The notes under the pieces: model-generated
Databases searched by the model: none
Seen by the model: the letters and a program-made list of their open reading frames with translations, nothing else
Told to the model about the DNA's origin: nothing
Made by a program: the position numbers and the translations under genes
Part shown: positions 11,652 to 15,102 of the stretch, piece after piece
How positions within the stretch are numbered: the stretch's first letter is position 1
How the letters are laid out: every line of letters starts with the position of its first letter
Assembly: GCF_026586625.1 (NCBI RefSeq)
Contig: NZ_JAODIW010000008.1
Span: forward strand, 157,332-204,363
Reading direction: 5' to 3'
Source: Halobium salinum
GTDB lineage: Archaea; Halobacteriota; Halobacteria; Halobacteriales; Haloferacaceae
Length of the DNA stretch: 47,032 nucleotides

Positions 11652-11827
11652 CGGCCTCCCGTCCTCCGTTCTGGACATGGTGAAGGCGGCCGCAACTCCT
11701 CCCGTAACCCGCGACCGTCCGACGCCGGCGGACACGGCTCGGCTAGCCAACCCGCCATTGGGAACCGAACTGACACCCTCCCTGTAGGGTAGGTCGTTCA
11801 ATGCCGTAGCGACTATTGTACTATCCG

Positions 11828-12670
11828 ATGGTAGAAAGAAACCGCCGAAGTTTCGTGAAAGCGACAGGCTCCGCCCTCCTCATCAGCGCCCTCGCCGGCT
11901 GTGGCGGCCAGAACGGCGAAGGGACGGAGACCACCGCGTCGGAGACGACGATGGGCAACGAGACCACGTCGATGGGTAACGAGACGACGATGGGCAACGA
12001 GACGACCACCGAGGGCAACGAAACCACGGACGGGACGACGACGGACGGCGACGGGGAGGCGAACCTCCGCGTCGTCCACGCCTCGCCCGACGCCCCGAAC
12101 GTGGACGTGTACGTCGACGACGCGGAGGCGCTGACGGACGTGCCGTTCGGCACGGTGAGCGACTACCTCCCGCTCTCGACGGGGAGCCACGCGGTCCGAA
12201 TCACCGCCGCCGGCGACCCGGACACGGTCGTCTTCGACGAAGAGGTCGAACTGATGGCCGCGGACTACACCGCGGTCGCGCAGGGCGAACTCGAAGAGGG
12301 CGCCGAGAACGCCTTCTCCGTGCAGGTGCTCGAAGACGACGCCGAGGCGCCCGGGAGCGACACGGCCGCCGTCCGACTGGTCCACCTCTCGCCCGACGCC
12401 CCGGCGGTCGACGTGACCGTCGAGAGTAGCGGCGACGCCATCTTCGACGGCGTCGCGTTCGGCGAGACGGCGACGGCGGAGGTCCCCGCCGGGGACTACA
12501 CCCTCCAAGTCCGCGGGGACACCGATGGCAACGACGGCGACGTGGCCGCCTCCTTCGACGTGACCGTCGAGGGCGGGAGCGAGTACACCGCCTTCGCCGT
12601 CGGCTACCTCACTCCCGACGACGAGCCGGCCGACGCCGGATTCGACCTGCTGGTCGCCGAGGGCGCCTGA
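11828..12670 (+). CDS. Tat-exported lipoprotein with two DUF4397 units
   Basis: A 280-residue cell-surface protein. The N-terminus has a twin-arginine motif (Arg6-Arg7-Ser-Phe-Val-Lys), a hydrophobic stretch and a lipobox LAGC with Cys25 as lipid anchor. Residues 33-75 are a Thr/Glu/Gly/Asn-rich stalk holding four MGNETT-type repeats, each with an N-glycosylation sequon (Asn44, 51, 57 and 64). The remainder has two DUF4397 copies, marked by HASPDAPNVDV near residue 85 and HLSPDAPAVDV near 195, likely beta sandwiches. The start at 11828 puts the twin arginines at the normal place; an in-frame ATG four codons earlier is less likely. Function is unknown, probably surface binding. Confidence 0.9.
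   Translation: MVERNRRSFVKATGSALLISALAGCGGQNGEGTETTASETTMGNETTSMGNETTMGNETTTEGNETTDGTTTDGDGEANLRVVHASPDAPNVDVYVDDAEALTDVPFGTVSDYLPLSTGSHAVRITAAGDPDTVVFDEEVELMAADYTAVAQGELEEGAENAFSVQVLEDDAEAPGSDTAAVRLVHLSPDAPAVDVTVESSGDAIFDGVAFGETATAEVPAGDYTLQVRGDTDGNDGDVAASFDVTVEGGSEYTAFAVGYLTPDDEPADAGFDLLVAEGA
11948..12028 (+). repeat. Degenerate coding repeat for four NETT sequons
   Basis: About four imperfect copies, 18-21 nt each, of a unit like ATGGGCAACGAGACC, all in frame in the DUF4397 lipoprotein. They encode the MGNETT stalk and could expand or contract by slippage without a frameshift. Confidence 0.7.
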
Positions 12671-12701
12671 GACGGCCGACCGGCCCCACACCGGCGAACC
12701 T

Positions 12702-12711
12702 TTTTTATATC
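12702..12711 (+). promoter_or_regulatory. Strong TATA element with no assigned gene
   Basis: TTTTTATATC, preceded by CGAAC, is one of the most A/T-rich runs in the window and resembles haloarchaeal stable-RNA promoters. Predicted transcription start is near 12732-12735. It lies 250 nt before metG, which has its own TATA. The T-run could also end transcription of the DUF4397 gene. Confidence 0.55.
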
Positions 12712-12731
12712 GCAGTCGACTCCGTACGAGC

Positions 12732-12823
12732 GTGAACTCGGTCCACCCGCCGCTTCGTCGCGGCCCGCCGCACGACCGCGGCACCACGATGCGCACGCGC
12801 ACCTAGTGAGCGATGGGTGGACC
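12732..12823 (+). ncRNA. Candidate structured small RNA upstream of metG
   Basis: Downstream of the strong TATA, a 9-bp perfect inverted repeat (GGTCCACCC at 12740-12748, GGGTGGACC at 12815-12823) encloses three small hairpins. The first two share the same stem: GCCGC-N6-GCGGC at 12749-12764 and again at 12767-12782. The third is TGCG-N4-CGCA at 12790-12801. Together they make a cloverleaf-like multibranch fold of 84 nt. It is not a tRNA: there is no TTCGA T-loop. Alternatively the transcript encodes a 24-residue leaderless peptide (GTG at 12732, stop at 12806), but its Arg-rich basic composition is unlike haloarchaeal proteins. High GC makes chance folding possible, so confidence is low. Confidence 0.3.
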
Positions 12824-12928
12824 CCGCGTCGCGGCCCGGGTCGATAGGACGGCCCCGCCGCGTCGCGAGCGAACCTCGACGCGCCCTTCTTCGGCTGACG
12901 TACCGTGGAGACGACCGAGACCGGCGGG

Positions 12929-12935
12929 CTTTAGG
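12929..12935 (+). promoter_or_regulatory. TATA element of metG
   Basis: CTTTAGG lies 26-32 nt before the metG ATG, predicting a leaderless mRNA independent of the strong promoter further upstream. Confidence 0.6.
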
Positions 12936-12960
12936 CCCGCATCCGAGAACCCAAAACAGA

Positions 12961-15102
12961 ATGAGCCACGAGGAGTTCCCCACCGAGAACCCGGCGGTGG
13001 TGACCTGTGGGCTGCCGTACGCCAACGGCGACCTGCACGTCGGCCACCTCCGAACCTACGTCGGCGGCGACGCCTACGCCCGCTCGCTCAGGAAACTGGG
13101 CCAGCAGACCGCGTTCGTCTCCGGCTCAGACATGCACGGCACCCCCGTCGCGGTGAACGCCGAGAAGGAGGGCGTCGACCCCGAGGAGTTCGCCCTGCGC
13201 TGGCACGACCAGTACGAGGCGACGTTCCCCCGGTTCAACGTCGACTTCGACAACTACGGCCACACCCACGACGAGACGAACACCGAACTCACCCAGGACA
13301 TCGTCCGCACCCTCGACCAGGAGGGCCACGTCTACGAGAAGGTCATCAAGGTCGCCTACGACCCGGACGCCGACCAGTACCTCCCCGACCGCTACGTCGA
13401 GGGCACGTGTCCCTACTGCGGCGAGAAGGCCCGCGGCGACGAGTGCGACGAGGGGTGTCAGCGCCACCTCGAACCCGGCGAGGTCGAGGACCCCGTCTCG
13501 ACGATTACGGGGAACCCCGCGCAGTACCGCGAGCGCACCCACAAGTTCTTCCGCGTCTCCGCGTTCCAGGAGTACCTCCAGGAGTTCATCGACCGGTTGG
13601 AGGGCACCTCGAACGCCCAGAACCAGCCCCGCGAGTGGATAGAGGGCGACCTGCAGGACTGGTGTATCACACGCGACCTCGACTGGGGTATCGACTACCC
13701 CGAGGTCGAGGGGGGCCAGAGCGAGGGGGAGGCCGAGGACGACCTGGTGCTCTACGTCTGGGTCGACGCCCCCATCGAGTACGTCGCCTCCACGAAGCAG
13801 TACTCCGAGCGCGTCGGGAGCGAGGCGTACGACTGGGAGCAGGTGTGGAAGGAGGCGGGCGAAATCGTCCACGTCATCGGCCGCGACATCATCCAGCACC
13901 ACACTGTCTTCTGGCCGGCGATGCTGAACGGGGCCGGCTACGAGGAGCCCCGCGCCGTCATGGCGAGCGGGTTCGTCACCCTCGGCGGCAAGGGGTTCTC
14001 GACCTCGCGTAACCGCGCCGTGTGGGCCGACGAGTACCTCGACGAGGGGTTCCACCCCGACCTCCTGCGCTACTACATCACGACCAACGGCGGGTTCCAG
14101 CAGGACGTGGACTTCTCGTGGGCGAAGTTCCGCGAGCGCGTGAACGGCGAACTCGTCGGCACCGTCGGCAACTTCGTCTACCGTTCCCTCCTCTTTGCCT
14201 ACCGGAACTACGAGGGGACGCCGGACGGCGAGGTCAGCGCCGAGGTCGAGGAGCGAATCGAGGCCGCCGTCGCCGACTTCGGCGAGGCCGTCAACGAGTA
14301 CGACCCGAAGGCGCTCGGCGAGGCCGCGGTGTCGCTGGCGCGCTTCGGCAACGAGTACATCCAGCGTAACGAGCCCTGGAAGCTCACCGACGACGAGCCC
14401 GACCGGGCCGCGCAGGTCATCTACGACTGCGTCCAACTCGCGAAGGCCGTCGCCGTCCTCCTCTACCCCATCGCGCCCGAGAAGTCGGCACAGCTGTGGG
14501 GCGACGTTGGACCCGCGGACGAGGACCTCGCCGAGGTCACCACCGACGCCGCGCTCACCCCGCCCGCGACGACGTTCGAGGAGCCGACGGAGCTGTTCGA
14601 GAAGATCGAGGAAGAACGCGTCGAGGCGCTGAACGAGAAGCTGGAGGCGCGCGTCGCCGAGGCGACCGCCGACGAGGGAGAAGCGGAGGGCGAAGGCGAC
14701 GGGTCGGACGCGGAAACCGAAAGCGACGACACCGACGCCGCCGAGGACTCGGACGTGAGCGACGAGTTCGAACCCATCGTCGAAGAGCGCATCGGCTTCG
14801 AGGAGTTCCAGGACGTCGACCTCCGGGTCGGCCGGGTCGAGAGCGCGGAGGGCATCGAGGGCGCCGACAAGCTCGCGAAGCTCACCGTCGACATCGGCGT
14901 CGAGACGCGCCAAATCGTCGCCGGCATCAAACAGCTCCACGACCTCGGCGAACTGCCGGGGAAGAAGGTCGTCGTCGTGGCCAACCTCGAAGGGGCCGAA
15001 CTGTTCGGCGTCGAGTCGAACGGGATGGTGCTCGCCGCCGGCGACGAGGCCGACCTGCTGACGACACACGGCGACGCGGAGCCGGGGACGCGCGTTCGGT
15101 AG
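12961..15102 (+). CDS. metG: Methionyl-tRNA synthetase with fused C-terminal tRNA-binding domain
   Basis: A 713-residue class I synthetase that charges tRNA-Met. The HIGH motif is His26-Val-Gly-His29; the KMSKS loop is variant, around residues 344-350 (KGFSTSR), as seen in many MetRS. The zinc knuckle is Cys150-x2-Cys153 plus Cys162 and Cys166. An anticodon-binding helical domain follows. A very acidic linker (about residues 570-605) then leads to a C-terminal EMAP/Arc1-type OB domain (about 610-713, with DVDLRVGRV and GVESNGMVLAA). In some archaea and bacteria this domain is absent or separate; here it is fused. The start at 12961 is fixed by the TATA element; longer in-frame starts are Arg-rich. 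Confidence 0.97.
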   Translation: MSHEEFPTENPAVVTCGLPYANGDLHVGHLRTYVGGDAYARSLRKLGQQTAFVSGSDMHGTPVAVNAEKEGVDPEEFALRWHDQYEATFPRFNVDFDNYGHTHDETNTELTQDIVRTLDQEGHVYEKVIKVAYDPDADQYLPDRYVEGTCPYCGEKARGDECDEGCQRHLEPGEVEDPVSTITGNPAQYRERTHKFFRVSAFQEYLQEFIDRLEGTSNAQNQPREWIEGDLQDWCITRDLDWGIDYPEVEGGQSEGEAEDDLVLYVWVDAPIEYVASTKQYSERVGSEAYDWEQVWKEAGEIVHVIGRDIIQHHTVFWPAMLNGAGYEEPRAVMASGFVTLGGKGFSTSRNRAVWADEYLDEGFHPDLLRYYITTNGGFQQDVDFSWAKFRERVNGELVGTVGNFVYRSLLFAYRNYEGTPDGEVSAEVEERIEAAVADFGEAVNEYDPKALGEAAVSLARFGNEYIQRNEPWKLTDDEPDRAAQVIYDCVQLAKAVAVLLYPIAPEKSAQLWGDVGPADEDLAEVTTDAALTPPATTFEEPTELFEKIEEERVEALNEKLEARVAEATADEGEAEGEGDGSDAETESDDTDAAEDSDVSDEFEPIVEERIGFEEFQDVDLRVGRVESAEGIEGADKLAKLTVDIGVETRQIVAGIKQLHDLGELPGKKVVVVANLEGAELFGVESNGMVLAAGDEADLLTTHGDAEPGTRVR

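Follow-up and report, generated by a model that had tools for sequence, protein, structure and literature searches.

Bacteria provide the textbook cases of gene control through leader peptides, such as the ribosome-mediated attenuators trpL, pheL and hisL and the pheST leader of E. coli. Here we describe a region upstream of metG, the methionyl-tRNA synthetase (MetRS) gene, in the haloarchaeon Halobium salinum. As in the bacterial attenuators, a short 5′ open reading frame (ORF) with cognate codons precedes a gene that serves that amino acid, RNA structures would overlap the ribosome footprint and aminoacyl-tRNA synthetase (aaRS) genes are among the targets. The metG leader differs from them in being archaeal, in that its upstream ORF (uORF) is leaderless and methionine would be the amino acid sensed, in having another promoter immediately next to the main gene, and in a hairpin with a GGA/GAA loop that is unlike a terminator. 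Because the terminator hairpin with its U-tract, one of the features that define attenuators, was looked for in 98 metG leaders and seen in none of them, we class the region as a variant that works like bacterial leader-peptide attenuators rather than as a member of that group. T-box riboswitches, which occur in bacterial aaRS genes, are aaRS leader RNAs that respond to tRNA charging, as the metG leader is proposed to do; in the metG leader, by contrast, sensing would occur through translation of cognate codons, and Rfam 15 scans of the window gave no covariance-model match to a T-box. The open full-text literature (subscription papers and preprints lay outside the scope of the search) yielded no description of archaeal leader-peptide control or of the metG element.

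Layout of the metG leader

The window, which is the whole 47,032-nucleotide stretch of DNA analysed, encodes a MetRS of 713 amino acids (metG, 12961–15102, plus strand; Pfam tRNA-synt_1g, Anticodon_3 and tRNA_bind). The leader region (12700–12830) lies between the end of a gene for a DUF4397 protein (12670) and metG. An initial annotation of the sequence had described an A/T-rich TATA region here, followed by a cloverleaf-like fold that might be a stable RNA linked to MetRS or, alternatively, a short leaderless peptide. The box is present at 12701–12710, preceded by GAACC, and forms part of a BRE/TATA-like element (promoter P1; 12696–12711, GAACCTTTTTTATATC); nearly all of the leaders compared have such an A/T-rich box about 30 nt 5′ of the uORF start. 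In the window, a leaderless uORF of 24 codons runs from GTG at 12732, about 26 nt 3′ of the TATA box, to TAG at 12804–12806 and would encode VNSVHPPLRRGPPHDRGTTMRTRT*, with one internal Met codon. Comparison of 98 leaders identifies this ORF as a conserved Met-codon leader in front of metG, which bears out both the peptide alternative and the suspected link to MetRS. The downstream promoter that had been attributed to metG itself also exists, with TTTA at 12930–12933.

The proposed cloverleaf fared differently. Its closing stem, a perfect 9-bp inverted repeat, is real (GGTCCACCC at 12740–12748 and GGGTGGACC at 12815–12823), as are the hairpins between the two arms. Repeats of this length arise in about 10% of shuffles of the 141-nt stretch that holds the stem and in 21% when the whole intergenic region is shuffled, and the fold of 12725–12835 has a z-score of −1.2, so that the stem and the fold, judged alone, are near chance; the longer segment 12732–12890 folds better (z = −2.1). 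The inner hairpins are peculiar to this genome; the GCCGC hairpins belong to an insertion in the uORF that is missing from relatives. ARAGORN found no tRNA and the Rfam search of the segment gave no family at gathering score, in agreement with the earlier statement that the segment is not a tRNA. The main proposal of the initial annotation, a stable small RNA of tRNA-like form with the 9-bp stem at its base, is therefore highly improbable: stem and inner hairpins exist, but the former is close to chance, the latter are not conserved, and neither a tRNA fold with a T-loop nor a conserved cloverleaf was found. What is conserved is the uORF together with one long hairpin, which starts at the 3′ arm of the stem.

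A conserved hairpin upstream of metG

The comparison drew on 80 haloarchaeal metG loci, which were picked for the similarity of their MetRS and not as a sample of prevalence; sequences are related throughout, and counts do not represent independent events. A sequence profile recovered a conserved block in 39 of 81 upstream regions. Its order is a TATA box, a short ORF about 30 nt later, ATGCGNATG near the end of the ORF, the stop codon and then GGGNGGA ... CGGTMAYRCG ... GAAACCC. The 3′ arm of the 9-bp repeat is the GGGTGGACC of this block, and the 5′ arm lies inside the ORF and recurs only in Halogranum and a small number of other genomes. The element is missing from about half of the 80 loci and is hence dispensable.

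The block folds as a single long hairpin, in which helix P1 (CCGGG/CCCGG) is followed by an internal loop (GGA/GAA), helices P2 and P3 and a six-base loop. When all elements were aligned together with MAFFT, two structural types were merged and only 4 pairs emerged, and we therefore modelled type A (Natrialbaceae and others; model R1) and type B (Haloferacaceae; model R2) separately. R1 matched 84 of 392 genomes of the order, a tally that includes weak matches and some noise, and R2 matched 54 of 170 genomes of the family, including that of H. salinum itself. All of the best 60 R1 and R2 matches fetched (60/60) lie directly upstream of metG. Among 39 further regions, every match above about 41 bits is at metG, as are many weaker ones; the single exception, a strong-looking match at 40 bits (L199), is antisense within a putative transporter gene and was set aside as chance. 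Other weak matches (25–32 bits; L175, L181 and others) have no metG downstream and were treated as noise. The match in L181 (about 1492–1552; G198:C2:311849–311909, minus strand; R1, 30.8 bits) precedes a protein-coding gene and has a TATA box and a GTG upstream, which may be chance. A DNA search of the family with a 161-nt segment returned mostly short chance matches beyond the locus itself; the match in L003 is a true homologue, not recognisable as such from that search.

The covariation check that had been suggested for metG upstream regions supports the hairpin; the 9-bp closing stem persists only in the window, in Halogranum and in a small number of other leaders. In the enlarged alignments (A4 and A5), the proportions of paired cells are 94.3% and 90.5%, both sides have changed in 13 of 16 pairs (A4) and 10 of 18 pairs (A5), and the covariation score was reached by 0 of 500 shuffles; as these alignments were fitted to the structure and contain related sequences, the seed alignment A2 gives the more cautious figure (6 of 16 pairs with changes on both sides; 0 of 500 shuffles). 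Because the window was part of the R2 seed, we tested it with models that lacked it. A sequence-only profile matched 12784–12885 (E = 4.6 × 10−4), and model R3 matched 12811–12881 (E = 1.9 × 10−5), the best match in the window (next best, 0.067), placing the conserved hairpin, with its NGGA/GAA internal loop between P1 and P2, at these positions.

The strong covariation, together with conserved unpaired letters in the GGA/GAA internal loop and in the GUCAUA or GUAACR terminal loop, would also fit a hairpin that is itself the sensor, either as a riboswitch or as a binding site for MetRS or another protein, with the uORF keeping it open or being a side feature. The CAU of the type A loop resembles the Met anticodon; we rejected the GUCAUA loop as an anticodon mimic because CAU is missing from type B, the window included. 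Given also that leaders with cognate codons exist for Phe and Trp too (see below), which a single ligand would not explain, we consider a sensing hairpin unlikely.

At the P1/P2 junction of the metG hairpin in L070 (2869–2932), three sheared G–A pairs in a row could arise in the UGGA/GAAA internal loop. Sheared G–A pairing of loops of this type may make the metG hairpin one continuous rod.

Methionine codons in the leader ORF

Of the 98 leaders, 96 have a short ORF whose start is preceded by an A/T-rich box and which ends between −26 and +6 nt from the element. The exceptional leaders are L039, whose frame does not close as expected, L198, which has no ORF by our criteria, and L166, for which an unrelated ORF was picked. 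The uORFs, which were selected by their TATA box and not by Met content, are 12–28 codons long across haloarchaea. At least one internal Met codon is present in 95 of 96 and at least two in 65 of 96, usually as the motif MRMR shortly 5′ of the stop; the uORF of the window has one Met codon, in MRTRT. Other TATA-preceded short ORFs of the same loci, used as a control, have at least one internal Met codon in 9 of 57 cases and at least two in none (0/57). Met accounts for 169 of 1,481 internal codons, compared with 12 expected from composition, and of the AUG triplets 169 are in frame and 1 is not. Two Mets are separated by CGG, CGC, CGT or CGA in 59 of 65 cases, so that Arg is kept while the third base drifts. 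The Met enrichment, the in-frame bias of AUG and the synonymous Arg changes together indicate that the uORFs are under selection on the reading frame.

The position of the Met codons appears to be constrained as well. In type A, the last Met codon lies at −20 ± 3 nt from the hairpin (s.d. 3.2), compared with an s.d. of 5.9 nt for the stop codon, which points to a maintained Met-codon-to-hairpin distance, as a need for the stalled ribosome to reach the hairpin would predict; the two positions are equally constant in type B. The predicted sensor codon of the window (12789–12791) is 22 nt 5′ of the hairpin.

Could the uORF instead be a gene in its own right, encoding a functional small protein rich in Met and Arg, with the hairpin as its 3′ untranslated region and the adjacency to metG an old linkage without regulation? 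A transcription start site study of Haloferax volcanii (PMC4983044) offers a stand-alone small-gene reading for such cases, and metG has its own promoter. Outside the Met–Arg core, however, the peptide varies freely in length and sequence; all strong cases are linked to metG, also where a different gene lies 5′ of the leader; and parallel leaders at pheS and trpS2 carry the cognate codon of the enzyme downstream. We therefore judge an independent small-protein gene to be quite unlikely.

The reading that we favour, and consider likely from sequence comparison, is that the region is a cis-acting metG leader, a ribosome-stalling leader-peptide switch that reads the supply of charged tRNA-Met. 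To judge from the TATA spacing, promoter P1 would start the transcript at or beside GTG 12732, and ribosomes would translate the leaderless uORF. With the Met codon about 20–25 nt 5′ of the hairpin, a ribosome awaiting Met-tRNA would reach or cover the start of the hairpin and, where the long-range helix P0 described below is present, its 3′ arm as well. Stalling or completion would then select P0, P1 or neither, and the selected state would set the share of the P1 transcript that becomes functional metG mRNA.

Possible alternative pairing of the hairpin strand

Helix P0 is the 9-bp stem discussed above and pairs the first codons of the uORF (12740–12748) with the strand 3′ of its stop codon (12815–12823); its 5′ arm is common to the window and to Halogranum L032, L168 and L034. 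The 3′ arm is also the 5′ strand of helix P1, so the two helices, which share GGGUGGACC in the window, would be mutually exclusive. The minimum-energy fold of the window retains P0 together with P2 and P3 and drops P1, so that P0 and P1 are predicted as two exclusive states there. The P0 pairing of the window is matched by 0.7% of 300 shuffles.

Across type A, uORFs pair better with the downstream strand of their own leader (−23.2 kcal/mol) than with that of leaders from other genomes (−19.8 kcal/mol; 0 of 5,000 permutations as good), as in the helix UGACGACAC/GUGUCGUCA of L056. Type B as a whole gave no support for P0 (4,434 of 5,000 permutations as good), although 9 of 40 type B leaders, including those of the window and Halogranum, pair with GGGUGGAC better than 95% of shuffles. 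These comparisons strongly support a helix equivalent to P0 in one large haloarchaeal group (type A) but do so only patchily in the group of the window.

A second promoter and the output step

Promoter P2, next to metG, has a palindrome (GCGGGCTTTAGGCCCGC, 12924–12940) over the TATA position. Inverted repeats of at least 5 bp occur at this position in 98 of 138 haloarchaeal metG promoters and in 0 of 137 control stretches. The palindrome has a single copy in the H. salinum genome, and palindromes at P2 are present both with and without the leader; it looks like a candidate operator of a dedicated regulator. P2 would yield a separate leaderless metG mRNA, and because of it the target of the leader would be an additional transcript of greater length.

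None of the 98 leaders (0/98) has a run of at least four T between the hairpin and the metG promoter, so a classical terminator is missing. As there is no U-tract terminator between the hairpin and P2, the output step would need factor-dependent termination, RNA decay or an effect on translation.

Leaders of pheS and trpS2

Two other aaRS genes are preceded by uORFs with cognate codons. Those of pheS end in GFGFFF (26 codons in a Haloferax species), and those of the accessory trpS gene (trpS2) contain WRWW or WRW (23 codons in a Haloferax species). Both peptides are conserved across genera and occur in the H. salinum genome as MTSEPGVQRTVRETTTDGFGLFFGA and MQSAPWRWRSHASGADSPVAVVAAA, upstream of pheS (L226, G000:C11:9320–10228) and of the accessory trpS (L252, G000:C11:541376–542275), respectively. 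Phe makes up 68 of 473 codons in the pheS uORFs (8 expected), which lack Trp and Met, and Trp makes up 30 of 277 in the trpS2 uORFs (6 expected), which lack Phe and Met, counts that overstate the case since these ORFs were chosen by cognate codons among TATA-preceded ORFs. The scan covered seven aaRS genes, and the same procedure gave no cognate-codon series at leuS, hisS, thrS or the housekeeping trpS (trpS1); short ORFs at −278 of thrS proved to be the translated promoter region of thrS itself.

In the pheS and trpS2 leaders, the cognate codons are enclosed by helices or overlap with them, and compensatory differences were seen by eye (CCGAACCC/GGGUUCGG versus CUCGAACGCG/CGCGUUCGAG, and CCGCUCCC/GGGAGCGG versus GUCCACUUCCC/GGGAAGUGGAC). 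A GGNGGAC ... GAAACC motif after the cognate codons was also noted by eye; model R1 gave no significant match to these leaders, and we do not assign them to the RNA family of the metG hairpin.

The H. volcanii study (PMC4983044) reports 16 uORFs in long 5′ untranslated regions, two of which precede aaRS genes (its Table 2: HVO_2948, pheS, 26 codons; HVO_A0127, TrpRS, 23 codons). These lengths equal those found here in other Haloferax species. In the sections consulted, nothing is said of cognate codons, RNA structure or regulation by these uORFs, and metG is absent from its uORF table. According to its authors, a low isoelectric point is common to all of the peptides in that table; the metG peptide described here is basic.

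The architecture, the in-frame Met codons, the covarying hairpin, the metG linkage and the cognate-codon leaders of pheS and trpS2 can all be read from the genomes, and they suggest that archaea probably sense amino-acid shortage by ribosome stalling. We put forward more tentatively, as a possibility somewhat short of even, a general haloarchaeal stalling attenuation for aaRS genes (Met, Phe and accessory Trp), in which leaderless peptides and a common GGA/GAA-loop hairpin would feed a new archaeal read-out, such as FttA/aCPSF1 termination or RNA decay, rather than an intrinsic terminator. With three cognate amino acids, the scheme is directly testable in H. volcanii, a genetic model, and it bears on transcription–translation coupling in archaea and on the regulation of leaderless mRNAs.

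The gene 5′ of the leader varies. In the window, a gene for a putative DUF4397 lipoprotein (11816–12670; listed start TTG, with an ATG just downstream) lies between a LiaF-like gene and the metG leader. It looks inserted, because in relatives a VTT or LiaF-like gene stands immediately 5′ of the leader.
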